From contig CAMFFG010000020.1 of the NCBI GenBank assembly GCA_945949655.1, forward strand, positions 1 through 10,655: 10,655 nucleotides of DNA. The letters are read 5' to 3'. The position numbers were made by a program, and so were the translations under genes. This document shows positions 1 through 10,655 of the stretch, in pieces. Numbering within the stretch: the stretch's first letter is position 1; every line of letters starts with the position of its first letter. Below the pieces are notes generated by a model. It ran no database searches. It saw only the letters and a program-made list of their open reading frames with translations, and was not told the DNA's origin. This DNA comes from an uncultured Peptococcaceae bacterium (lineage in GTDB: Bacteria; Bacillota; Peptococcia; Peptococcales; Peptococcaceae).

Positions 1-272
1 AGCGCATTTTCTGTGATTTGCTGGGGATTGAAAAGCGGGTAGCCTTAAAGCATGCCATCAATGCCATTCAGTCTGAATTTGACGGGGAAGAACACGATGC
101 ACTGTGGGATGCCCGCAATACTGCCAAAATTTTTGCGCTGTCCAAAAATGAAGCGGAGTTTCAGCGCATTATGGGCCCGGTCATTGAAGCCTTTAAACCG
201 GTGGAACCGATGACATCCACGCTGGGCGACCTGTTTCCCGATATGGCTAAGCTGTTGGCCACTGTGGAGTAA
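1..272 (+). CDS. 3'-5' exonuclease, DEDDh (RNase T / DnaQ-like) family, C-terminal part
   Basis: The reading frame is open from the window edge (first full codon at base 3) to TAA at 270-272, so only the last 90 residues or so are present. The fragment contains EEHDALWDARNTA, which matches the Exo III motif HxAxxD of DEDDh exonucleases, where the His and Asp sit in the two-metal active site. The preceding FCDLLGIEKR and HAINAIQSEF segments fit the helices before that motif. Members of the family trim RNA or DNA 3' ends; the substrate cannot be read from this end of the protein. About 30 residues follow the Exo III motif, a short tail typical of single-domain exonucleases and not of a PolC fusion. 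A terminator follows directly. The family call is fairly safe; the subfamily (KapD-like or other) is open. Confidence 0.8.
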   Translation, partial: RIFCDLLGIEKRVALKHAINAIQSEFDGEEHDALWDARNTAKIFALSKNEAEFQRIMGPVIEAFKPVEPMTSTLGDLFPDMAKLLATVE

Positions 273-284
273 AAAAATAAAATC

Positions 285-321
285 TGCCGCTGGTTCATAT
301 CATTTAACTGGCGGTATTTTT
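285..321 (+). terminator. Rho-independent terminator after the exonuclease gene
   Basis: Bases 285-295 pair with 306-316 (11 bp with three G-T wobbles, 10-nt loop), followed by a T tract at 317-321. It begins 13 nt after the exonuclease stop and separates that gene from the dipeptidase. Confidence 0.7.
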
Positions 322-380
322 ATGTTTCAGGGTGATGTTATCAGCCTGCTGGATGAGATAATACTAGTTTAAGAAAGAAG

Positions 381-1337
381 ATGACGATTGACATGATATT
401 TGATGGACATTCGGATATCCTCTATGGCATGAATCAGAAACGGCAGCAGGGCGAAGCGGATGTGTTTCGTCGCTGTTATGAGAAATGGTTTCGACAGGGA
501 CAGGTGGAGGGATGCATCGCTGTGCTGTGGAGTAATCCGGATATGGCGGTACCGGCTGCGGTGCAGGTGACCCAGCAGCTGCAGACTTTAAAACAGGAGT
601 TAGAGGTGTGCGGCGATGAAATAACGCTGCTGCGCTCCGCCGATGATCTGGTGCAGGCGCAACAGCAGGGAAGCATTTATTTTTTACTGGGCGTTGAGGG
701 GCTGGATGGCTGCCCACAGAACGAGGCCAGAATAGACTGGCTGTACGAACAGGGCGTGCGCCATGTGGGACTGACCTGGAATGGCGCCAACGATTTTGCC
801 GGTGGCGTGCATACCGGGGACGGACTGACCGATCTGGGCCGCCGTGCCGTGCGGCGCATCCAGAAAAAACGCATGCTGCTGGATGTATCACATTTGAACG
901 ATGGCTCTCTGCGGGATGTGCTGCTTGTGGCGGATGGACCGGTGATCGCATCGCACAGCAATTGTCGCAGACTGTGTGATGTGCCCCGCAATCTGACCGA
1001 TGATCAGATCAAAGCCATTGCTGCCACAGGAGGGCTGATAGGCATCAACAGTTACCCTTCATTTATTGCTTCGGCCCGGGAAAAGCAGGATCTGCAGCAT
1101 CTGACCGACCATCTGGTGCATGCGGCGGAGCTGGTGGGTACGGAGCATGTGGGGCTTGGCCTGGATTTGAATTACTGGGCGGAGGATGGCACGACAGCAG
1201 AACTGCCCGAATTACAGCAATATCAAAAGGCAGAGGCTTTGTTGCAGCTGATGGAGCAGCGGGGCTTTGCGAAAGAAGAGATCCGGCAGGTCTGCCGGGA
1301 TAATTTTCTGCGCCTGCTGCAGGGGGCCTTGGCCTGA
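381..1337 (+). CDS. Peptidase M19 (renal dipeptidase-like) metallopeptidase
   Basis: This 318-residue protein has the full set of M19 membrane-dipeptidase motifs. DGHSD near the N-terminus supplies zinc ligands H10 and D12. GVEG supplies the bridging E106. LTWNGAN lies at 131-137. DVSH gives H171 and SHSNCR gives H192. The RNLTDDQ segment (203-209) and GLGLDL, with D262, complete the active site. Length and motif spacing are normal for the bacterial family, which hydrolyses dipeptides, often with relaxed stereochemistry at the C-terminal residue. No signal peptide or lipobox is seen, so a cytoplasmic location is inferred. The ATG at 381 has only a weak purine-rich upstream stretch. ATG 393 would give a start just before the DGHSD motif, as in many homologues, so the true start may be 393. 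It is not a sporulation gene by family, and its position before yabP looks incidental. Confidence 0.93.
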   Translation: MTIDMIFDGHSDILYGMNQKRQQGEADVFRRCYEKWFRQGQVEGCIAVLWSNPDMAVPAAVQVTQQLQTLKQELEVCGDEITLLRSADDLVQAQQQGSIYFLLGVEGLDGCPQNEARIDWLYEQGVRHVGLTWNGANDFAGGVHTGDGLTDLGRRAVRRIQKKRMLLDVSHLNDGSLRDVLLVADGPVIASHSNCRRLCDVPRNLTDDQIKAIAATGGLIGINSYPSFIASAREKQDLQHLTDHLVHAAELVGTEHVGLGLDLNYWAEDGTTAELPELQQYQKAEALLQLMEQRGFAKEEIRQVCRDNFLRLLQGALA

Positions 1338-1379
1338 TGGCCAGCGAAGCATGGTAAACGGTCATACCTGCAAGATGCG

Positions 1380-1409
1380 GACATAGCAGGCGGGTTTTCT
1401 GCATAAAGT
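1380..1409 (+). promoter_or_regulatory. Candidate sigma-E-type promoter for yabP-yabQ
   Basis: GACATAGC (1380-1387) and CATAAAGT (1402-1409), 14 bp apart, resemble the Bacillus sigma-E -35 (GTCATATT, 5 of 8) and -10 (CATACAMT, 6 of 8) elements. Transcription would start near 1416, about 24 nt before the yabP ATG. In B. subtilis yabP and yabQ belong to the sigma-E regulon, which fits. The assignment rests on motif resemblance only. Confidence 0.4.
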
Positions 1410-1439
1410 ATAGTATTCTGGGAAAGGAAGGCGATTTTT

Positions 1440-1727
1440 ATGCAGGAGCAGGAAAAAAATACATTGGAGCTGGTAAACCGGCAGCTGATGCGGCTCAGCG
1501 GTGTGAACAATGTGGATGAGTTTGATGAAGAAAAAATTGTGCTGCAAACAGAACTGGGCAGGCTGGAGATCAAAGGACAGCATCTGAATGTGACCAGTCT
1601 GGATGTAGAGCATGGCAGCCTGCAGGTGGATGGTGTCATCGACAGCTTTGTCTATGTGGAGGAACAGAAAAAGCGGATTCGCAGCAGTAAAAAGCAGAAG
1701 GGCTTTGTTTCCCGTTTGTTTTCATGA
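1440..1727 (+). CDS. yabP: Sporulation protein YabP
   Basis: The 95-residue protein is recognised as YabP from its length, its partner and its sequence. It has an N-terminal LELVNRQLMRLSGVNNV segment, the central FDEEKIVLQTELGRLEIKG strand-rich part, LNVTSLDVEHGSLQVDGVID, and a basic C-terminal tail ending in KKQKGFVSRLF. YabP is a small, forespore-envelope-associated protein of the YabP/YqfC family, made in the mother cell; its biochemical role is not known. AAGGAAGG at 1424-1431 lies 8 nt before the ATG and decides the start. The stop codon overlaps the ATG of yabQ (ATGA), so the two are translationally coupled. A sigma-E-like promoter lies just upstream. The rqcP (yabO) gene that precedes yabP in Bacillus is absent here; a dipeptidase sits there instead. 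Confidence 0.92.
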   Translation: MQEQEKNTLELVNRQLMRLSGVNNVDEFDEEKIVLQTELGRLEIKGQHLNVTSLDVEHGSLQVDGVIDSFVYVEEQKKRIRSSKKQKGFVSRLFS

Positions 1728-2212
1728 CAGACTATACGGTAGGACAACAACTCTGGCAGATGGCACAGATGGCTGCTGTGGGCTGGGTGATGCTGCTGAC
1801 TGCCCATGAAGAGCAAAGCCTGGCGTTATGCGGGCGCTGGCGTTACGGAAAAAAGACTGTGATCGATTTTCTGTTTTGTCTGTTATGGGGTGTTTTGCTT
1901 TGGCTGGTATTGCTGCGGGTGAGCGGAGGCCTGCTGCGCAATTATATTGTGTTTGGTCTGCTAAGCGGGGCCATAGCGTATCATCTGGCATGCCGGCGAT
2001 GGCTGAACAGGCCCTGCCTGCTGCTGGCCCGGGGAATTCTGTTTGCATGGCACTGGTTTTGCCGGTTTGTGATGCTGCCCTGGCATTTGCTGAATCGGTG
2101 GTGCTGGCAGCCATGCAGAAAGATGATACAGAATTTTTTCGTGGCAAGGCAGGAAACAGATGCGGAAGAGGAAAATATTACAGAAAAAAATGAAAATAAT
2201 TTTTCAAGTTGA
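1724..2212 (+). CDS. yabQ: Spore cortex biosynthesis membrane protein YabQ
   Basis: The 162-residue protein starts inside the last codons of yabP (ATGA overlap) and matches YabQ in position, size and hydropathy. Hydrophobic segments occur at about 11-27, 47-67, 72-89 and 99-118. They are separated by short charged loops and followed by a Trp- and Arg-rich stretch and a polar, acidic tail rich in Glu and Asn. YabQ localises to the membrane around the forespore in B. subtilis and is needed for cortex formation; that role is inferred here from family and context. There is no separate ribosome site, so translation probably depends on yabP. The TGA stop overlaps the -35 element of the next promoter, which marks the end of the sporulation pair. 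Confidence 0.87.
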   Translation: MTDYTVGQQLWQMAQMAAVGWVMLLTAHEEQSLALCGRWRYGKKTVIDFLFCLLWGVLLWLVLLRVSGGLLRNYIVFGLLSGAIAYHLACRRWLNRPCLLLARGILFAWHWFCRFVMLPWHLLNRWCWQPCRKMIQNFFVARQETDAEEENITEKNENNFSS

Positions 2213-2238
2213 TATAGCATTTAAGAGGCTTTTATTAT
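2209..2238 (+). promoter_or_regulatory. Candidate sigma-A promoter for divIC
   Basis: TTGATA (2209-2214) and TATTAT (2233-2238) are each one base off the sigma-A consensus and lie 18 bp apart, in a strongly AT-rich stretch. This would give the division gene downstream a vegetative promoter independent of yabPQ. An alternative -10, TATAAT at 2238-2243, has a poor spacing of 23 bp. Confidence 0.55.
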
Positions 2239-2276
2239 ATAATAAATAGATAGAAAAACATGCGGGTGGTGAACCA

Positions 2277-2573
2277 ATGGCCAAGAAAAAAGGAAAAAAA
2301 GTTAATGTAAAACGAACCATCATTACTTTAGTTGCAATTTATGTCGTTTGCCATCTGGTTTATGGCGGAAGCAGTATCGTTCAGTTAAAAATGCAGCAGC
2401 AGCAGCTGGCCCGGGAACTGGATGCTGCCTACGCGGCACAGGAAGAACTGCAGGCTGATCTGGATTACATGAACAGCTCCGATGCGCTGGAAGAGATCGC
2501 GCGCGAAAAGCTGGGACTGGTGAAGGATGGAGAGATCCTGATCCGAAAGGTCAATACCACGCAGGCACCATAG
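2277..2573 (+). CDS. divIC: Septum formation initiator DivIC/FtsB family protein
   Basis: The 98-residue protein has the layout of the family. A short Lys-rich cytoplasmic N-terminus (1-13) is followed by one membrane helix at about 14-30. A coiled coil runs at about 34-65, rich in Gln, Leu, Ala and Glu. The conserved extracytoplasmic motif EEIAREKLGLVKDGEI lies at 72-87. DivIC/FtsB joins FtsL and DivIB/FtsQ in the divisome and helps activate septal cell-wall synthesis. The position between yabQ and the S1-domain gene is the same as for B. subtilis divIC, which favours that name over ftsB. The start is set by GGTGGTGA at 2266-2273, just before the ATG. A sigma-A-like promoter at 2209-2238 suggests expression during growth, unlike yabPQ. 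Confidence 0.9.
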   Translation: MAKKKGKKVNVKRTIITLVAIYVVCHLVYGGSSIVQLKMQQQQLARELDAAYAAQEELQADLDYMNSSDALEEIAREKLGLVKDGEILIRKVNTTQAP

Positions 2574-2648
2574 CGCTGTTATGTTTTAATCTGATGTGTC
2601 ACAACAGTATGACATAAATTTTAATTTTTAGGGAGGCAGTTTGTTCGC

Positions 2649-3008
2649 ATGTCCATCAGTAAAGGGCAAATTTTAGAGGGAACCGTAACAGGTATTACAA
2701 AATTTGGAGCATTCATTGAACTCAGCACAGGAGAAACCGGACTGGTACACATCTCTGAAGTGGCAGACACTTATGTGAATGACGTAAACGATTTTTTAAA
2801 GTTGAAAGATGCTGTCAAGGTAAAGGTAATCAATGTTGATGACAGTGGAAAGATTGGTTTGTCGATTCGCCAGGCGAAAGAACGGCCAAAGCAGCCAACT
2901 GTTTCCTTTGAAGACCGTTTGGCCCGTTTTATGAAAGACAGCGATGAAAAGCTGGCTTCTCTCAACAAAAATATGAATAACAAGCGGAAAAGCGGCAATC
3001 GATATTAA
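2649..3008 (+). CDS. yabR: S1 RNA-binding domain protein (YabR-like)
   Basis: Residues 1-76 form one S1 (OB-fold) domain. The signs are GQILEGTVTGITKFGAFIEL, the GLVHISEV motif at about 31-38, a VKVKVINVD strand and GKIGLSIRQA. A polar, basic tail of about 40 residues follows, with FEDRLARFMKD and an Asn/Lys/Arg-rich end; this is the arrangement of B. subtilis YabR and related general stress protein 13-like factors. Such proteins bind RNA or ribosomes; the precise role is unclear. The ATG is preceded by GGGAGG at 2631-2636, a rather long 12 nt away, and no in-frame start lies closer, so 2649 is kept. Gene order after divIC is as in Bacillus. A strong terminator follows 7 nt after the stop. 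Confidence 0.9.
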   Translation: MSISKGQILEGTVTGITKFGAFIELSTGETGLVHISEVADTYVNDVNDFLKLKDAVKVKVINVDDSGKIGLSIRQAKERPKQPTVSFEDRLARFMKDSDEKLASLNKNMNNKRKSGNRY

Positions 3009-3015
3009 GAGGCAG

Positions 3016-3045
3016 GCGGTGTGCGTAACGGTACACCGCTTTTTT
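3016..3045 (+). terminator. Rho-independent terminator after yabR
   Basis: GCGGTGT (3016-3022) pairs with ACACCGC (3033-3039); the stem can extend by a G-T and a C-G pair. A run of six T follows (3040-3045). It ends the divIC-yabR unit and separates it from ppx/gppA. Confidence 0.87.
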
Positions 3046-3116
3046 CGTTTTATAATTTTTCCGGTTAGCGGGATAAAATAAAAAAGAACTTGTAAACAGA
3101 AGCAGGAGGTAATAAG

Positions 3117-3983
3117 ATGCGCAAGGCAGTGATCGATATGGGTACCAACAGTACACGGCTGGCGGTGGCGGAGCTGGTGGACGGGCAGTTGCAGATGATT
3201 TATACAGAAGTGGCGGAAACGCGGTTGGGCGAAGGTATGGGTGCAGAACGGCTGATTCGTCCGGTGCCGTTAGGCCGTAATGTGGAGGCGGTGCAGCGCT
3301 TTGTGAAAAAGGCGCAGGAGCTGCACGCGGTATCATTGCGGGTGACAGCTACCAGCGCGGTGCGGGATGCCGGAAATCAGGATGAAGTGCAGCAGGCCAT
3401 TGAAAAAGTGGCCGGTGTGCCACTGGAGGTTTTGCCGGGAGCCGTGGAAGCGCGACTCAGTTATCTGGGCGCCAGTGGAGATTTTGCATATCTGAACCGG
3501 CCACTGGCTGTGCTGGATATCGGCGGAGGCAGTACGGAACTGGTATATCCACGTCCTGACGGTATACACGGCGCCAGCGTCAATGTGGGGGCCGTGCGTC
3601 TGCTGGAGCATCCCGAACTGTGCCGCAATGTGCGGGAGCTGTTGCAGGGCCTGCAGGAAGATGCACTGCCGCAGGATTGTGCGCTGATTGCTGTGGGTGG
3701 CACCAACACCTGTCTGATGGCCATGGAACTGGGATTGACCCATTATGACGGAAGCAGGATCCATGGACAGACTATGGCAAAAGAACGGGTGGATGCCTGG
3801 TGTGAAACGCTGATGCGCATGAGCCAGTCTCAGCGGGAACAGATCCCTGGCATGAAAGCAAAACGGGCTGATATTATGCCCTATGGCGTGCTGATTTTGC
3901 AGCAGGCTATGGAACTGTTACACATGCCACAGGTGATCATCAGCGATAAGGGACTGGTGTATGGCTTACTGTTAGATGCATAA
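3117..3983 (+). CDS. ppx: Ppx/GppA phosphatase family protein (exopolyphosphatase / pppGpp phosphohydrolase)
   Basis: The 288-residue protein is the short, two-subdomain form of the Ppx/GppA family, within the ASKHA fold. The first phosphate loop is IDMGTNSTRL at 6-15. The ATSAVRDAGN motif lies at 78-87. The catalytic glutamate is probably E111 in GAVEARLSYLG, where the more common EEA reads VEA. The second phosphate loop is DIGGGSTE at 134-141, followed by NVGAVRL and AVGGT (192-196). There is no HD-type C-terminal extension, so this is not the long E. coli form. Family members release phosphate from polyphosphate ends or convert pppGpp to ppGpp; sequence does not separate the two. AGGAGGT lies 6 nt before the ATG. 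The neighbours are a terminator upstream and a sigma-E-like promoter downstream, so it may be a single-gene unit. Confidence 0.9.
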   Translation: MRKAVIDMGTNSTRLAVAELVDGQLQMIYTEVAETRLGEGMGAERLIRPVPLGRNVEAVQRFVKKAQELHAVSLRVTATSAVRDAGNQDEVQQAIEKVAGVPLEVLPGAVEARLSYLGASGDFAYLNRPLAVLDIGGGSTELVYPRPDGIHGASVNVGAVRLLEHPELCRNVRELLQGLQEDALPQDCALIAVGGTNTCLMAMELGLTHYDGSRIHGQTMAKERVDAWCETLMRMSQSQREQIPGMKAKRADIMPYGVLILQQAMELLHMPQVIISDKGLVYGLLLDA

Positions 3984-4005
3984 TCGGGAATCACATTTTC
4001 TGTGT

Positions 4006-4034
4006 GTCATAAAACAATGACACCTTCATATACA
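4006..4034 (+). promoter_or_regulatory. Candidate sigma-E-type promoter for the SPOCS-like gene
   Basis: GTCATAAA (4006-4013) and CATATACA (4027-4034), 13 bp apart, each match the Bacillus sigma-E elements at 6 of 8 positions. The predicted start near 4042 leaves about 22 nt of leader containing GGAGGTG at 4051-4057, which agrees with a GTG start at 4064. The -35 region overlaps a 7-bp inverted repeat (GTGTCAT 4004-4010 with ATGACAC 4017-4023). Confidence 0.45.
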
Positions 4035-4063
4035 TAAAGAAATGGACAATGGAGGTGTTTGGG

Positions 4064-5287
4064 GTGCAGAGGATAGATCTGACCTATGAGTGGAATGATG
4101 TGGCACTCCTGACGGATCAGCGGGCGTATACATTTATTTGCAAAACGATGCTGCAGATTCCGGAGGATGAAGTAAAGACATTGCAGGAGATGATTCTGGT
4201 GGACTGGGGCAGCAGATCCGCCCAGAAAGATTCCATAGAGTTTGACGGCTATATGCAGCTGCAGGCCGGGTATCTGAACGGACAGGGCCAGCATGGGGAG
4301 TTACAGATGGAAGTACCTTTATCGGGAAAGCTGCAGGAACCGTTGACCGAACGCACCAAAGCAAGATTGCTGTATAGCAGAGGAAAAATAGCAGGAAGCT
4401 GTCTGCTGCTGGAAACGGTACTGCAGCTTTCCCGGGAACTATCTTTGCAGCGCAGTCAGGTGATTGCTGGAACATTTGTGATGAACGAACTGCTGGAATT
4501 GCCAGCGGCCTGGCCGGGATGCCGGGAAGTGCTGGCAACAGCAGCCAGCCTGCAGGTGCAGGACTGCCAGATTGCTGGCGCGCAACTGCTGGTGCAGGGG
4601 CAGTATGAGATGGCTGTGGTGTATGCCAGTGAGGAACAGCCCGGCGAGTGCCTGTTTGCTTATGAACAGAAACGGCCTGTGACACTGGCGGTAGCCGTAC
4701 CGGCCGGGCTACAGGAAATAGAACCGTTACAGCCCTGTTATCAGGACCTGTCGGTGCAGCTTCTGGATGATCACCGGATCCAGATCAGTGGCAGCGGTGT
4801 GCTGTGTACTGTGGCAGTTCCTGAGGAGGAAGGAGCATCTGCGCAGTGCAGACAGGAGGAGAAAGCATCAGAAGCTGTGGCCGATGATCAGTTGACCAGA
4901 CAGGTGACCGAGGCTCTGCATCAGCTGATGCAGGAACTGCAGCGGCATACGGATCTGCTGCGGCCAGAACAGCAGGAGCAGGCAACAGAAAGACCGCTAG
5001 GGCAAACAGCTGCGACGACAAAAGAAACGACAGAACCGCAGCCGGAACCGCCGTTAATAAAGCAAAACGAAACCGTCTGTGAGACCGTTTGCCCCATAGA
5101 ACGGGGAAAGCCTGGCAAAAACAGCCATCCATCGGTAGTCAACTGTCGTGGATCCCGGCGCGCCAACTTATCCAAATATATGCGGAATCTGAACAGCTCG
5201 GTGCAGAGCCCCAATGCGATGCGCAATTTTGAGATCGGCGGAGAACAGGAAGGCGAACCATCGGAGGAAACAGAAACACAAGAGTAA
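4064..5287 (+). CDS. SPOCS (DUF3794)-like protein, probable spore envelope component
   Basis: This 407-residue protein is not recognised with certainty. Two segments look like SPOCS/DUF3794 beta-rich units. The first, at about 45-125, carries IEFDGYMQL and a VPLSGKL strand. The second, at about 165-255, carries a V.DCQIAGAQLLVQGQYEMAVVYASE pattern, a RPVTLAVAVPAG strand and a terminal HRIQISGSGVLCTVAV strand. The pattern of a strand, Gly, a VxY strand, an exF/Pxx strand, then a final ixixg strand is typical of that family, which occurs in SipL-like spore morphogenesis proteins. The rest (about 256-407) is low-complexity, rich in Gln, Glu and Thr, with a basic patch (GSRRANLSKYMRNLN) near the end; no LysM domain is visible. 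GGAGGTG at 4051-4057 lies 6 nt before GTG 4064, which favours this start over ATG 4049. A sigma-E-like promoter and the location before spoIIE suggest mother-cell expression. Function is inferred, not shown. Confidence 0.6.
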   Translation: MQRIDLTYEWNDVALLTDQRAYTFICKTMLQIPEDEVKTLQEMILVDWGSRSAQKDSIEFDGYMQLQAGYLNGQGQHGELQMEVPLSGKLQEPLTERTKARLLYSRGKIAGSCLLLETVLQLSRELSLQRSQVIAGTFVMNELLELPAAWPGCREVLATAASLQVQDCQIAGAQLLVQGQYEMAVVYASEEQPGECLFAYEQKRPVTLAVAVPAGLQEIEPLQPCYQDLSVQLLDDHRIQISGSGVLCTVAVPEEEGASAQCRQEEKASEAVADDQLTRQVTEALHQLMQELQRHTDLLRPEQQEQATERPLGQTAATTKETTEPQPEPPLIKQNETVCETVCPIERGKPGKNSHPSVVNCRGSRRANLSKYMRNLNSSVQSPNAMRNFEIGGEQEGEPSEETETQE

Positions 5288-5317
5288 CAGCAGGCAGCCA
5301 TCGGGCTGCCTGCTGTT
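5286..5317 (+). terminator. Terminator-like hairpin after the SPOCS-like gene
   Basis: Bases 5286-5299 pair perfectly with 5304-5317 (14 bp, 4-nt loop). The stem begins in the last two bases of the TAA stop. The following sequence (ATATAGTATGG) is only weakly T-rich, so termination may be incomplete. Confidence 0.75.
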
Positions 5318-5391
5318 ATATAGTATGGAGGATACTTAGGGCCAAGGGGTACAGGTAGAACTTTACAGAAAATTTTTTCTTCCTCCACCAA

Positions 5392-5425
5392 TCCGACATT
5401 TTTTACAGGCGCAATAGAGTATTAT
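5392..5425 (+). promoter_or_regulatory. Candidate spoIIE promoter with wide spacing and a 0A-box-like element
   Basis: CCGACA (5393-5398) resembles a -35 and TATTAT (5420-5425) a -10, separated by 21 bp. In B. subtilis the Spo0A-activated spoIIE and spoIIG promoters have this unusual 21-22 bp spacing. TCCGACA (5392-5398), overlapping the -35, is one base off the 0A-box half TTCGACA. A start near 5432 would exclude ATG 5424 as start codon and supports GTG 5460. This is motif resemblance only. Confidence 0.4.
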
Positions 5426-5459
5426 GGGAATATATGGATTTACAGATGGAGGAATGCTT

Positions 5460-6593
5460 GTGAAAAAATCAGAGATGACCAGGCTGACCCAATTGGGCAA
5501 CAGTTTTATCGAATTAGGAAATGCAGTGCAGCAGATGGATGTGCAACCGCCGCAGGAACAGGAAGAGATTGTGAAAGATCTCTATTGTCGTGTATATCCG
5601 GAGGTGTGCGATTTTTGCGCCAAAAAAAACTGGTGCTGGGAAGAGGACCGTACCTTTACGCTGGAGGCGCTGGCAGCAGCCTGCAATCTGCTGGAGAATC
5701 AGGGATTTGGTGCAGAACCGGTGTTTTCCACCCGGTTTCAGGGGCGCTGTTCCCGATCCGGACAGTTGAAGATCGCTTTGTGGAATCAGATGGAGCCCTA
5801 TCAGCAACAGCAGGCTCGGCAGAGGCAGACAGAGGAGTGCAAAGCCAACATCGCCCATCAACTGGTACAACTGGGCGAGCAGCTGCAGCACATGCGTGTG
5901 GGTAATGCGGCCGATCTCCATAACCAGCGGCTTTTAGTAGGACGTGCCTCCAGCAAAAAAGAAGCTGTGTCTGGTGACAGCTGGGGCGTGCAGGATCTGC
6001 AGGATGGCCGTATGGTACAGATTTTGTGCGACGGGATGGGCAGCGGCGAACTGGCCATGGAGCAGAGCAAATTAGCCGTACATTTGCTGCAGACGCTGCT
6101 TTCCGGCGGACTCAGTATGCGTTTGTCGCTGAATATGCTGAATACGGTGCTGTCTTTCCAGTACGGCGGGGTGCGATTCAGCACCATGGACATTGCGCTG
6201 TGGAATCTGAACACAGGCAAGATTGAATTTTATAAATATGGGGCCGCTCCCTCCTTTGTAAAAAACGGGAAGCAGGTGACTGTGCACAGTGGAGATTCGC
6301 TGCCGGTGGGGATTCTGCCCCGCGTAGAGGCTGCCATGCCGGAGCACAGTATTGCGGAGGGAGACTTGCTGGTCATGATGAGCGACGGATTATATGAACT
6401 GAACGATGGCGGATTTCAGTGGGAGCATATCATCAGCTGTCTGCCCACCACCAATCCGCAGCTGGCTGCTGAATATCTGCTGGCCATTGCCACCAGCCGT
6501 ATGCGTGCCAGTCAGAAAAAAATGGCCGCACTGCATCCCGACGCTATGCCCCATGGAGATGACATGACGGTGCTAGTCAGCAGACTGTTTTAG
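5460..6593 (+). CDS. spoIIE: SpoIIE-family PP2C serine phosphatase lacking the N-terminal membrane domain
   Basis: The 377-residue protein matches the middle and C-terminal parts of SpoIIE. The linker region carries the Cys cluster C50, C53, C59 (VCDFC...CW) and the FQGRCSRSG motif, followed by a Gln-rich helical segment. The PP2C domain then shows SGDSW (171-175), CDGMGSGE (190-197), MSDG (307-310) and the final GDDMTVLV (366-373), including the metal-binding Asp residues. SpoIIE dephosphorylates SpoIIAA-P to free sigma-F and takes part in polar septation. B. subtilis SpoIIE has 827 residues, with about ten membrane helices at the N-terminus; none is encoded here. The 142 bp upstream contain no missing part. 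GGAGG at 5448-5452 lies 7 nt before GTG 5460, a better start than ATG 5424, which has no ribosome site. The last 31 codons lie in a direct repeat with 10376-10470. The one CTA Leu codon near the end is CTG in the other copy. Confidence 0.87.
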   Translation: MKKSEMTRLTQLGNSFIELGNAVQQMDVQPPQEQEEIVKDLYCRVYPEVCDFCAKKNWCWEEDRTFTLEALAAACNLLENQGFGAEPVFSTRFQGRCSRSGQLKIALWNQMEPYQQQQARQRQTEECKANIAHQLVQLGEQLQHMRVGNAADLHNQRLLVGRASSKKEAVSGDSWGVQDLQDGRMVQILCDGMGSGELAMEQSKLAVHLLQTLLSGGLSMRLSLNMLNTVLSFQYGGVRFSTMDIALWNLNTGKIEFYKYGAAPSFVKNGKQVTVHSGDSLPVGILPRVEAAMPEHSIAEGDLLVMMSDGLYELNDGGFQWEHIISCLPTTNPQLAAEYLLAIATSRMRASQKKMAALHPDAMPHGDDMTVLVSRLF

Positions 6594-6601
6594 AGACGGA
6601 T
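6499..6601 (+). repeat. Direct repeat, upstream copy: functional 3' end of spoIIE (attL-like)
   Basis: This 103-bp stretch covers the last 31 codons of spoIIE, its TAG stop and 8 bases beyond. It aligns without gaps to 10376-10478 (constant offset 3877) with seven mismatches. The first 28 bases are identical in both copies and would be the natural crossover block. Sequence similarity stops abruptly on both sides. The copy completes the intact gene, so if DNA was inserted here this end was probably brought in by it. Confidence 0.93.
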
Positions 6602-6653
6602 TAGTTGAAAAAAACAGAAATGACACATGTGGGAGCAACACGTATAGGAACAA

Positions 6654-6697
6654 AAAAGCACGTCTTCTACTACTATGCGAATAGAAAACGTGCTTTT
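6654..6697. terminator. Bidirectional terminator between spoIIE and the ligase gene
   Basis: AAAAGCACGT (6654-6663) pairs with ACGTGCTTTT (6688-6697). After one C-A mismatch, TTCTA (6665-6669) pairs with TAGAA (6682-6686), leaving a 12-nt loop. The A and T tracts at the stem ends allow termination from either side. It lies 27 bp past the ligase stop on the minus strand, inside the inserted segment. Confidence 0.83.
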
Positions 6698-6724
6698 GAT
6701 ACTAAATAATAGATGCAACTTTAT

Positions 6725-8464
6725 TTATATTGTTTGATTCATAATATCTTTCTTTAAGCCGACTCTGTTTGTTTTAAAGTGGAAAAATGGACGTTCTGAT
6801 AGCTGAATCATTTTTACAGGGCGCTCATGCGGAAGTAGTGCAGCCAAAATCGCAGATTCTACATCTGCGATGGTATAGCCGTCTTCTAAAATCAGATACA
6901 GATATGGCACATGACTGTCTGGATGTTCTGGATCGATGACAGTTAGGAAGAACTCATCGGAAATACCAGGAATTCTGGCGTCTGCCAGACGATTTTCCAT
7001 TGTAATTTCACACAGATGGCCGCCTCCATAGCGCTGCGCGTTTCCGCGGCCCATGGTGAACACAACGCCGTCTTCGTTGATATAACCTAAATCACCGGTG
7101 TGTACCCAGACTTTGCCATCCGCATGGGTCTGTAATGCTTTGGCTGTTTTGACAGGATCATCGTATCCTAACATGTTCCCTGGACCGGCAATGCAGATTT
7201 CCCCTGGTGTGTTGTATCCCAGTTCTTCCTGGGTGCCAGGAACGAAAATACCAATCGTGTTTAACGGCATTGGAATCCCAATATTCCCGTCGCGAACCGG
7301 GTATGGGCTGAATGGCAGGGTGGCAGAAGATCCAGCTTCACTCTGCCCGTAGCCAGTAGTGTAGTTGACTTTGCAGTTATGGTCATGGAGGAACTGCTGG
7401 GCACGTTGGATCTGGCAATTATTGTATGCTTCGCATCCAGCACCGGCTGCTTTCAGATGGGACATATCGTAGTCGTCGGGAATCCGTTTGCTTAACATCA
7501 AACGTTCAATGAACATTGGAATTTGTGGCCAGAAGTTTGGTTTGTAATGCATGATTTCCAAGTCGATATCATCTACTTCAACGAAAGGATCCATAATCAG
7601 CAGTTTGCCGGAAACCATTGGAGATAAAATGATAGATACTACAACAGCAATCAGGCATGGAGGCAGAATGGTTACCAGCCAAGTCAAGCGTTCGTTAGAC
7701 GGTACACTGTACATGCACATCTGATGCAGCACAGCAATCATGTTGCGTGCAGACAGAATAACTTGCTTGGATGGCCCAGTAGAACCACTGGTGTATGCAC
7801 GGAACAGTGGACGGTTGTAATCGGCAGGTGCTTCCACTGCGCCGGTGAAGTTTTCACCGATTTTGAGAAAATCGTTCCAGGACATCACAAATTCTCCCAC
7901 TGCAGCGCACTCAGGATATAGACTCTGTACCACTTTTCTGTTATGTGGAGCGATGGTATCTGGACAACCCGCAGAGTTATATGGTGATAACAGCACAAAA
8001 TATTTAGCACCGGCTTCCTGATAGGAAGCCATTTCTTCTTTTGACAGGAAAGTGTGTGCAAAAATAGTTTTGGAGTTGGATTTTTTTATGGCATCGGCAT
8101 TTTCCGGAATGGTATTGTCACGACACAGTAAGGATGCGCCGATTTTTTCTGCCGCCAGCAGCAGGAAAACAAATTTCGGTACCGTTTTGATAAAGACAGG
8201 AATCTGATCACCTTCTTGGAAGCCAAATGCGCGCAGCGCTTTCGCAACCATATCAGCTTGTTCAAAGATTGTGCGCCATACAATATCATTGCCATAATAA
8301 TGAATAGCGCTGATGTCCAGTCCTGGACAGTTCTGCAGCATGTATTCGCGCAGTGTGCATTCCGGTACAGTGAGCTGTGTAATTTCTTCTGGATAGTATT
8401 TCATCCACACGCGATCTACACTTGGAATGCCGGTCAATGTTTTTTCAGCCGTTTTCTCAGTCAT
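6725..8464 (-). CDS. Class I adenylate-forming enzyme (AMP-dependent acyl-CoA synthetase/ligase family)
   Basis: This 579-residue enzyme would activate a carboxylate as acyl-AMP and pass it to CoA or another acceptor; the substrate is unknown. Recognised ANL-family motifs: A3 phosphate loop AYTSGSTGPSKQV (223-235), A4/A5 region ending in YTTGYGQSEAG (368-378), A7 HTGDLGY (455-461) and A8 GRGNAQRYGGG (472-482). The C-terminal subdomain is odd. The usual A8 hinge Asp is not found (GRGNAQ). The A10 region reads HFKTNRVGLKKD (562-573), without the usual GK that provides the adenylation lysine, although K564, K571 and K572 are near. AAAGGTGA on the minus strand (8470-8477) lies 5 nt before ATG 8464, so this start is preferred to GTG 8473, which is part of that ribosome site. 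No phosphopantetheine carrier is attached. It shares strand and insert with the upstream helix-turn-helix gene, but a terminator lies between them. Confidence 0.9.
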   Translation of the reverse strand: MTEKTAEKTLTGIPSVDRVWMKYYPEEITQLTVPECTLREYMLQNCPGLDISAIHYYGNDIVWRTIFEQADMVAKALRAFGFQEGDQIPVFIKTVPKFVFLLLAAEKIGASLLCRDNTIPENADAIKKSNSKTIFAHTFLSKEEMASYQEAGAKYFVLLSPYNSAGCPDTIAPHNRKVVQSLYPECAAVGEFVMSWNDFLKIGENFTGAVEAPADYNRPLFRAYTSGSTGPSKQVILSARNMIAVLHQMCMYSVPSNERLTWLVTILPPCLIAVVVSIILSPMVSGKLLIMDPFVEVDDIDLEIMHYKPNFWPQIPMFIERLMLSKRIPDDYDMSHLKAAGAGCEAYNNCQIQRAQQFLHDHNCKVNYTTGYGQSEAGSSATLPFSPYPVRDGNIGIPMPLNTIGIFVPGTQEELGYNTPGEICIAGPGNMLGYDDPVKTAKALQTHADGKVWVHTGDLGYINEDGVVFTMGRGNAQRYGGGHLCEITMENRLADARIPGISDEFFLTVIDPEHPDSHVPYLYLILEDGYTIADVESAILAALLPHERPVKMIQLSERPFFHFKTNRVGLKKDIMNQTI

Positions 8465-8484
8465 TGTAGTCACCTTTTTCTTTT

Positions 8485-8516
8485 GCAGTACAGCCAGATT
8501 ACTGCTGGCTGTCTGC
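8485..8516 (-). promoter_or_regulatory. Hairpin / operator-like palindrome in the ligase leader
   Basis: ACAGCCAG (8490-8497) and CTGGCTGT (8505-8512) are perfect inverted repeats. The stem extends by GCAG (8485-8488) with CTGC (8513-8516) across one bulged T. It lies 7 nt upstream of the ligase ribosome site and lacks a T tract on the minus strand. It is therefore more like an operator or leader RNA structure than a terminator. It is a candidate target of the neighbouring XRE protein. Confidence 0.45.
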
Positions 8517-8671
8517 TCCTTTCATATTTTTGTATCTGATTTAGTTGCACGGTCCCATGGATGAGTATTTAAAAAGATTAAAAACTGGCATGATAGGAGT
8601 CGTAGAAATCATCTGTAAAAATGTAACATAGTTTATCTTGAAACACTAGTGAATAAAAAAGAGGAAACATG

Positions 8672-8717
8672 AATAAAAAATTTCAAGCCATTTATGTCTA
8701 ATAAATGGCTTGAAATT
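8672..8717 (-). terminator. Rho-independent terminator after the XRE regulator gene
   Basis: Bases 8679-8695 and 8701-8717 form a perfect 17-bp stem with a 5-nt loop. On the minus strand the stem is followed by a T-rich tract (complement of 8672-8680). It starts 6 nt after the regulator stop and uncouples regulator from ligase transcription. Confidence 0.9.
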
Positions 8718-8722
8718 AGATG

Positions 8723-10201
8723 TTAGTTTGATATTTCGTTTAAAATTTTAATTGATATCATAAAGTCTTGAATTGACTGGATTAGAAATGATTCATCTTT
8801 TAATGCATGATGGTTTTGTTTCATCCAGATGTCATCAAAAAAGTTTTTGAAAATTGTTTTAACATTCTCTTTGTTTAAAATGGCAATTTTGTTGTGCGGT
8901 GCCTGACTCACAAGTCGCAAATAACCAAAGGAATTGGAAAGAAACAGGGATGCTTTTGGAATATGATGAAAACTGGAAATAAAATCGCCAACAACCTGTT
9001 TGACTTTTAGATTGCTCTGTGCGGTAAAAAGATGCAGCATGTGTGTCATGTAACGAAGCCGTTGTTCTGGAGACAAAATCACTTTAAAGTTGTATAAGTC
9101 AAGTTCTCCAGAGATAGAAAATTGGGAGAGTGTACTGTCATAAATGATGATACGCATTGGAGATGTGCGCAATACCCGGCTTGTAATTTGATGCATCGTG
9201 CGCAGCCGTTCCATATAGGCAGGGTCTGTAAAATGCTGTTGTATCAGCTCTTCATGCAAGTCGTCGGGCAAAAAATGTTCCGTCAGATGTCCTATGAGAT
9301 AGCGCAGATTTGCTGTCAATAACGATTGCATGTACTCATGGTTCTGCATCATCTCTGTAATGGTAGTACTGCGGAACAACAGGGATTCTTTTGTGCAGAG
9401 CGAGGCAATGCGGTTGAAAATGAGATTGCAGTTTTCCTTTTCCTCGTTGATGGTGACCGAGATACAGTGATGGGAATCCAGCAGCATACCGGAGAGAGAA
9501 AAAGTATTTTTTACCACAAACAGCAGTTTTCCATAGGCAATGTCATTACTATATAAGTTATAGTCAATATTATTGGAATTGGTTAACATATTCATCAGAA
9601 ACACAGCATCTTCTGTATGGGTTCGAGGGTCATCACTCAGTTTGATGATACAGGAGAAGTGTACACCGGGGAAAAAATATCCAGCGGCATGTTCATAGTA
9701 GGGCATAGAGATGAGCAGACGATGCTCTTTGTCCAGTGCAAAAATGTCAAGAACAGATATAACATCCAGAGAGTTTACCTGGCGCAGAGAAGGATGATGC
9801 AGCTTCATAATAAATTGCATCAGTGTTAATTCGGGATAGTAAGAAAGTGCTGGTGCAATTTCTGCTCCAGTTTCCTGTCTTAAGTTTTTTACGTAGAGAT
9901 ATTCATCCAGCAAATTATCGTAAATGGCTTGATTCAGATCAGTAGTTTTTTGTAATTGATATTGGGATAAAAAAAGAACACTGGTGGTGTCATCCAACAT
10001 TTTAACAATACAGTTGCTGATACCCCATAAAATTTTTTCCGCATTTTTTTCTGGTGGCAAATTTTTTCCGTTCAGCCATTTGCTGATATACGATTCATCA
10101 TACTGCAGTTCTTTTGCCAGTGTGATATTTTTTATGTTGGCTTGTGTTAATAATTGCTCCAGCAATTTACTGAAACGGTTTTTTTCGTTTGATACAGGCA
10201 T
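8723..10201 (-). CDS. Large XRE-type helix-turn-helix regulator with uncharacterised C-terminal region
   Basis: The 492-residue protein starts with a Cro/CI-type helix-turn-helix at about 10-58. ITLAKELQYD forms the first helix and turn, and ESYISKWLNGKNLPP the recognition helix and following loop. The remaining 430 residues match no family I recognise. They look globular, alternating strands and helices, with no clear membrane segment; a few hydrophobic strands (LLISMPYYEHAAGYFF, GKLLFVVKNTFSL) could belong to a ligand-sensing domain. AGGGAGA lies 9 nt before the ATG on the minus strand. The gene is the most AT-rich in the window and is rich in Ile, Asn and Lys codons ending in A or T, which suggests transfer. 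It precedes the ligase gene on the same strand but ends in its own terminator. A local regulator of the ligase is a reasonable inference; no direct evidence shows this. Confidence 0.8.
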   Translation of the reverse strand: MPVSNEKNRFSKLLEQLLTQANIKNITLAKELQYDESYISKWLNGKNLPPEKNAEKILWGISNCIVKMLDDTTSVLFLSQYQLQKTTDLNQAIYDNLLDEYLYVKNLRQETGAEIAPALSYYPELTLMQFIMKLHHPSLRQVNSLDVISVLDIFALDKEHRLLISMPYYEHAAGYFFPGVHFSCIIKLSDDPRTHTEDAVFLMNMLTNSNNIDYNLYSNDIAYGKLLFVVKNTFSLSGMLLDSHHCISVTINEEKENCNLIFNRIASLCTKESLLFRSTTITEMMQNHEYMQSLLTANLRYLIGHLTEHFLPDDLHEELIQQHFTDPAYMERLRTMHQITSRVLRTSPMRIIIYDSTLSQFSISGELDLYNFKVILSPEQRLRYMTHMLHLFTAQSNLKVKQVVGDFISSFHHIPKASLFLSNSFGYLRLVSQAPHNKIAILNKENVKTIFKNFFDDIWMKQNHHALKDESFLIQSIQDFMISIKILNEISN

Positions 10202-10282
10202 AGAAATATCTCTCCCTTTGTGGATAGCGTCTTTATTGCAGTAATAGACTAGTTTGAATATATATTAATTATCGTTGAAGTT

Positions 10283-10312
10283 ATTCTATCATATAATTGG
10301 ATGATGCGTAAA
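10283..10312 (-). promoter_or_regulatory. Candidate promoter for the XRE regulator
   Basis: On the minus strand TTTACG (10307-10312) and TAGAAT (10283-10288) lie 18 bp apart, matching 4 and 5 of 6 sigma-A consensus bases, in a very AT-rich region. The leader to the ATG at 10201 would be about 75 nt. Nothing else is evident between 10202 and 10375. Confidence 0.35.
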
Positions 10313-10375
10313 CTGTAACATAAGAGATTAATTTCATAACTGTCTTTCGAAATATAAAATTTGGATATTGATTTA

Positions 10376-10478
10376 GTATGCGTGCCAGTCAGAAAAAAAT
10401 GGCAGCGCTGCATCCCGATGCCACGCCCCATGGAGATGACATGACGGTGCTGGTCAGCAGACTGTTTTAGAGACAGAT
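10376..10478 (+). pseudogene. Direct repeat, downstream copy: detached 3' end of spoIIE (attR-like)
   Basis: This stretch repeats 6499-6601 at 96 of 103 positions and keeps the spoIIE frame open through to TAG at 10468-10470. Read as protein it differs from the intact gene at one residue (Thr for Met) and otherwise only in silent third positions. It has no upstream gene body: a TGA lies in frame just before it, at 10369-10371. It is followed 12 bp after the stop by a strong terminator, as expected for the original end of the host gene, whereas the functional copy runs into insert sequence. It is probably the displaced ancestral 3' end and is not expressed as a protein. Confidence 0.88.
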
Positions 10479-10482
10479 ACAA

Positions 10483-10522
10483 AAAGGACCGATGCAAACA
10501 AAAGGGTTTGTATCGGTCCTTT
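10483..10522. terminator. Bidirectional terminator, probable original spoIIE terminator
   Basis: Bases 10483-10499 pair with 10506-10522 (17 bp including one G-T wobble, 6-nt loop). A short outer match, GAGACA (10470-10475) with TGTCTC (10522-10527), may add to it. It serves the convergent pair formed by the spoIIE end and the RNA methyltransferase gene. Confidence 0.88.
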
Positions 10523-10558
10523 GTCTCATTATCATGTGGTTTTATTCTGTGGCGTGAT

Positions 10559-10655
10559 TTAGCGCCGGCCTAACTGCCAGAAGGCCACGGCGCTGGCGGA
10601 AGCCACATTGAGCGAATCTACGCCGTGGGCCATGGGGATGCGCACCGTGTAATCA
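10559..10655 (-). CDS. SpoU/TrmH-type RNA 2'-O-ribose methyltransferase, C-terminal part
   Basis: Only the last 32 residues are in the window, ending in TAA (complement of 10559-10561). They read VRIPMAHGVDSLNVASASAV and then AFWQLGRR. This is motif 3 of the SPOUT superfamily's SpoU branch (IPM...SLNVAxAxxV), which forms part of the knotted S-adenosylmethionine site. Members methylate ribose 2'-OH groups in rRNA or tRNA. The specific member (rlmB, trmH, tsnR-like) cannot be told from this end. The gene converges on the spoIIE end and shares its terminator. Its GC-rich codons match the core genes and not the insert, so it belongs to the host backbone. Confidence 0.9.
   Translation of the reverse strand, partial: DYTVRIPMAHGVDSLNVASASAVAFWQLGRR

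Follow-up and report, generated by a model that had tools for sequence, protein, structure and literature searches.

The 3′ end of the sporulation gene spoIIE stands twice in the window (the whole 10,655-nt stretch of Peptococcaceae DNA analysed here, which is one complete contig, C20, of a 68% complete MAG comprising 285 contigs and 1.55 Mb), and between the two copies lie the genes of an adenylate-forming ligase and a regulator that apparently are foreign to their host. The upstream spoIIE is kept whole, its 3′ end being supplied by the left copy. The bracket and its cargo are confirmed observations, while reading the bracket as a pair of attachment sites is a reasonable hypothesis. To its leading form we give a probability of roughly 0.4: a site-specific, gene-restoring integration, with exchange within the first 28 nt of the repeat, by a recombinase that has since gone, leaving a CIME-like remnant.

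Layout of the repeat and its cargo

Of all direct repeats that a repeat search finds in the window, the largest pairs positions 6499–6601 with 10376–10478, both on the plus strand: 103 nt at 93% identity, ungapped, with a spacing of 3877. Ninety-six of the 103 nucleotides are identical and seven are mismatched, which bears out the report, in an earlier note on this DNA, that about 100 bp of the spoIIE end recur without gaps at 10376–10478; a BLAST comparison of flank against flank (E 3.75e-41) excludes a chance origin. The repeated stretch consists of the 3′ end of spoIIE and 8 nt beyond the stop codon (6591–6593). The left copy forms the present end of the gene, and the right copy is a spoIIE stub comprising the last 30 codons, the stop and 8 nt. 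Throughout the assembly, these two copies are the only matches to the spoIIE 3′ end.

The spoIIE gene itself (5424–6593, plus strand) is intact and of a short form. Its 389 codons (PF07228, E 2e-22; PF19732, E 2.7e-12) encode a C-terminal portion of SpoIIE_N (profile positions 351–483) and the phosphatase domain, and leave no space for the usual membrane domain. Lengths of 361–410 aa are found for 45 of the 50 closest entries (P0241–P0290), and open frames of about 670–924 aa in most other genomes compared. Three genomes of the same genus (G002, G006 and G007) gave no spoIIE match, except for one weak phosphatase match in G006.

The segment between the copies spans 3,774 bp at 40.5% G+C, against 51.5% for positions 1–6498 and 52.5% for 10479–10655, and both of its genes lie on the minus strand; the two opposite-strand, AT-richer genes described earlier are thus as described. 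One gene (6725–8473) encodes a 582-aa AMP-binding ligase (PF00501, E 9.4e-42), for which the nearest solved relatives by sequence, over residues 225–539, are 4-coumarate–CoA ligases. The other (8723–10201) encodes a 492-aa regulator with an XRE-type HTH (HTH_3, E 3.8e-5) and a probable PLD-fold domain resembling the sensor of TrmB, and is presumed to be a ligand sensor; the PLD-type folds come from a fold search in which residues after about 280 are barely covered. Given that fold assignment, two weak homing endonuclease matches to the C-terminal part (E 0.0027 and E 0.00093) were set aside, though they may be genuine. A defence system was also considered and rejected, PADLOC giving no convincing match. 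Further open frames of at least 60 aa in the insert either overlap the ligase and regulator genes or, in the case of 10249–10497, cross the right copy.

Three hairpins punctuate this layout. Because a terminator-like hairpin (8679–8717, minus strand; terminator scan, and inverted repeat I9 at 100%) separates regulator from ligase, the two are probably separate transcripts. Inverted repeat I21 (6654–6697) lies 3′ of the ligase on the minus strand and 3′ of spoIIE on the plus strand, and is terminator-like on the minus strand only; each cargo gene would then have a terminator-like hairpin. The third (10483–10522; inverted repeat I14 at 94%, absent from the terminator scan list) is found between the spoIIE stub and the 3′ end of an RNA methyltransferase gene (10559–10655, minus strand) that is cut by the contig end. 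The 31-aa tail encoded here is 81–93% identical to proteins from four same-genus genomes whose open frames measure 262–354 aa, and we take the gene to be TrmH/SpoU-like. That the downstream copy, with an original-looking terminator behind it, marks the old gene end was proposed in the earlier note. The hairpin at 10483–10522 is indeed present and is probably the old spoIIE terminator; the assignment of the copies is a matter of probability, the right one being probably the original spoIIE end and the left one probably having come in with the insert. The terminator scan returned 6 sites against 3.5 expected, and a promoter scan 10 against 10.4 expected from shuffles, no excess.

Distribution of the cargo and of the site

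Neither the ligase nor the regulator has a close relative in the seven other genomes of the genus (0/7), in which the sole regulator match is a weak one, at the level of the HTH, in G003 (E 1.1e-4). Within the class the regulator occurs in its own genome and in none of the 45 others (1/46; E <= 1e-10), and a sample across the phylum gives none among 397 others (1/398 with its own; E <= 1e-30), so that the earlier description of the segment as foreign-looking is upheld. As a control, the regulator was looked for in 60 genomes of the family to which Anaerostipes sp. 992a belongs and found in 3, that genome included; it is patchy there as well, and these finds indicate that the search detects relatives of 40–45% identity. 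The ligase has distant AMP-binding relatives in 34 of 59 other genomes, with 26% identity at best, as expected for so large a family.

A scan of named genomes provided 80 loci, of 107 encoding a regulator relative, and one phage-collection record brings the set to 81. Where a family is given, these loci are mostly from Lachnospiraceae, with some from Oscillospiraceae, Butyricicoccaceae and others, and one from Erysipelotrichaceae. A ligase relative is encoded at 41 of the 81 loci and adjoins the regulator in 39. In a midpoint-rooted regulator tree of 41 rows, the window protein groups with four relatives at 54–85% identity, nested within a larger group having both Lachnospiraceae and Oscillospiraceae members. 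Since the regulator is absent from the other genomes of the class and phylum samples, and since Lachnospiraceae and further clostridia repeatedly have regulator–ligase pairs, it is well supported that the cargo was gained laterally from a source outside the class.

A phage or plasmid origin of the cargo was considered and rejected. The regulator has no plasmid match, no relative in viral_contigs, and a single phage-collection match, MT837030, at 45%. This record (MT837030.1, labelled Bacteriophage sp.) carries a ligase–regulator pair and matches a contig of a Lachnospiraceae MAG along 6 kb at 98.5% identity, so it is probably a mislabelled bacterial contig rather than a phage. The ligase has 10 matches in phage records, all below 60% identity. 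Around 29 of the pairs, the commonest Pfam among the families listed is Glycos_transf_1, in 7 of 96 proteins scanned (of 99, three being omitted; proteins above 1500 aa were left out), and a separate clustering of 35 loci placed a glycosyltransferase group at 9 and a large-protein group at 8. Four Mediterraneibacter loci have the same conserved downstream DNA with glycosyltransferase-like genes; it is preceded by a regulator module that includes a ligase in L108 and L112 and lacks one in L109 and L110, as if the modules had been swapped there. A Dorea MAG contig (L078, 5963–12003) and Floccifex porci of the Erysipelotrichaceae (L142, 5946–11995) have 6 kb in common, regulator and ligase included, at 86% DNA identity, which reflects either recent transfer or misbinning.

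A true empty site was not found among relatives, all of them other species. Four same-genus genomes have spoIIE (69–74% protein identity), each with a single gene end, free of cargo and followed by other DNA; a second gene-end match in G003 (E 0.76) is noise. The trmH tail has no match in the downstream DNA examined at those four loci, and is strongly matched in G001, G002, G005 and G006, each time with neighbours different from those in the window. The comparison of relatives proposed earlier therefore yields cargo-free loci with one gene end, but no junction of spoIIE, terminator and methyltransferase. The neighbours of spoIIE and of trmH vary among species; in G003, for instance, a homologue of window gene 4049–5287 lies downstream of spoIIE (L066), not upstream as in the window.

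From 50 genomes with a spoIIE match, our own included, 42 loci of other species were taken (37 from wider relatives and 5 from the genus or family), with 0.6–19 kb of downstream DNA each. None of the 42 has a duplicated spoIIE end beyond short matches of 24–26 nt (3 loci, E 0.003–0.009), and other cargo at the same site, which the earlier note had suggested looking for, did not emerge. Among the 41 loci with a ligase, 38 pairs were taken (L085 and L101 are not adjacent, and L102 was omitted) and one was dropped for a short flank; across the remaining 37, whose flanks were covered to at most 2.5 kb each and several of which are near-duplicates, no comparable bracket was found, just matches of 15–39 nt at 8 loci. 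The idea that the pair is a mobile cassette with a gene-end bracket of its own was rejected on this basis. One locus, L075, has an identical 18-nt sequence on both sides of its pair (7885–7902 and 11330–11347). The spoIIE end is not seen as a recurrent target, nor is the cargo seen in such a setting elsewhere.

Origin of the bracket

The differences between the two copies are informative as to how they came together. Six of the seven mismatches are coding and five of these are synonymous, whereas six random changes in the coding stretch would give at most one residue change with P = 0.0014. At most one nonsynonymous change in six is expected with P = 0.56–0.61 if both copies were constrained, and with P = 0.016–0.062 (range by transition bias) if a neutral stub stood beside a constrained working copy. 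Because five of the six coding differences are synonymous, the copies probably diverged, on moderate evidence, as alleles in working genes and were later brought together; it would follow that the insert probably brought its own spoIIE end and left the old one as a stub. This pattern weighs against the notion that spoIIE, or its end, was duplicated in place, after which the insert arrived and the second copy decayed. Such a history would produce the same bracket with no need for a gene-end donor, but its neutral stub should have accumulated more residue changes. The sole residue difference, Met in the left copy and Thr in the right, lies in a variable alignment column, where 23 homologues show 7 residue types, Thr occurring in three of the homologues and Met in none, and no further spoIIE match is seen ahead of 10376. 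We regard duplication in place as very improbable, and the decayed tandem spoIIE duplicate, named in the earlier note as the case that would overturn its reading, is disfavoured.

In the mechanism that we propose, a two-gene accessory segment would have entered the chromosome by recombination inside the 3′ end of spoIIE. The arriving DNA would bear a spoIIE end of its own, covering the last ~100 bp, and the bracket would arise because this copy recombined with the resident end. The imported end would complete spoIIE as the left copy, and the old end would have moved 3.9 kb downstream as a stub, with the old terminator still behind it. The enzyme, the place of the crossover and the identity of the imported copy are the parts of this scheme that we infer.

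The same outcome might be reached by homology. DNA of a sister lineage, linear or circular, in which ligase and regulator already followed spoIIE, could recombine through spoIIE on the left while an illegitimate join formed on the right, so that the old 3′ end came to lie further downstream; variants are homology-facilitated illegitimate recombination and the single crossover of a circle. This is a possible route, if a somewhat doubtful one. The copies differ as alleles of sister species would, mainly at synonymous positions, the neighbours of spoIIE differ by species, and the route dispenses with the integrase that the insert does not carry. Shifted old 3′ ends are seen at Vibrio T6SS effector loci, for which just such an origin is proposed in PMC5361080; the same paper rates such events as rare, and the route requires a donor with the cargo already behind spoIIE, none of which was found. 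An assembly chimera, in which a metagenome-bin contig joins two strain variants, would suit a MAG so fragmented and incomplete, and a 7% difference between copies is what two strains might show. The sequences ahead of the copies nevertheless diverge at once and leave no assembler-usable overlap at 10376. The regulator and ligase clusters each contain two contigs and the spoIIE cluster one. We consider a chimera improbable.

Site-specific integration by a lost recombinase is slightly preferred over import by homology, given the exactness of the bracket and a spoIIE that is kept whole. The first 28 nt of the copies, where the edge of exchange is expected, are identical (P = 0.10 by chance), and CIMEs, elements that have lost integration and transfer genes and kept their att sites, are a described kind according to PMC5704250. 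Several points count against this preferred route. Neither gene of the insert is a recombinase, a transfer gene or a phage structural gene, so the trace of site-specific integration claimed in the earlier note comes with no integrase inside it; the MAG shows only two Xer-sized PF00589 proteins (open frames of 307 and 306 aa) along with a pair of small PF00239 proteins of 216 and 208 aa, which at 68% completeness is weak evidence, and same-genus genomes have from 1 to 10 PF00589 matches. No inverted repeat above 9 nt is present at the insert ends, and the core motif has no match in viral_contigs. At 103 nt, the repeat is long beside the 8–60 bp given for tyrosine-recombinase IMEs in PMC5704250. 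The want of a similar duplication at the 42 spoIIE loci or the 37 other pairs weighs in the same direction, as do the missing empty site and the differing spoIIE neighbours in the four relatives. Going further, the spoIIE 3′ end could be a true att site for small trans-mobilised elements, with a cassette that still excises and re-integrates, perhaps with sporulation, but this we hold to be a long shot.

Should the site-specific reading prove true, spoIIE would join the protein genes whose 3′ ends act as docking sites, and a regulator–ligase pair found in this analysis mainly in Lachnospiraceae would have a documented route into another class. Even otherwise, the locus serves as a worked example of how two copies of a gene end, through their silent differences, can suggest that an insert brought its own.

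Comparison with known systems

Integration at the 3′ ends of protein genes is known from e14 in icd and from islands in guaA or prfC, where, as is probable here, the element supplies a new gene end; unlike here, an integrase is carried and empty sites are known. An ICE, IME or prophage would contribute its own recombinase and transfer or phage genes, none of which lies in the insert. The locus also resembles the CIME, a decayed ICE or IME that keeps attL and attR: there, as in the window, a gene's 3′ end stands as a direct repeat on both sides of cargo without integration or transfer genes, and the gene stays intact. The window departs from that kind in its spoIIE site, its 103-nt repeat, its 3.8 kb without conjugation relics and the lack of a known partner element; the portions of the open-access literature searched did not treat spoIIE as an integration site.

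Sporulation genes do accommodate accessory DNA in other systems, such as skin in sigK and gin in gerE (PMC5595907). There the gene is interrupted and serine recombinases excise the element in sporulation, whereas the window has an intact gene and no recombinase in the insert. In content, the nearest counterparts are the clostridial pairs of an XRE/PLD-fold regulator and an AMP-binding ligase, in which the same two families stand side by side as in the window, but with no gene-end bracket of comparable size at the 37 examined. In architecture, the Vibrio T6SS arrays (PMC5361080) provide the parallel of a new module on a conserved upstream part with the old 3′ end shifted; the modules there are effector–immunity pairs, and in the window a ligase–regulator pair.
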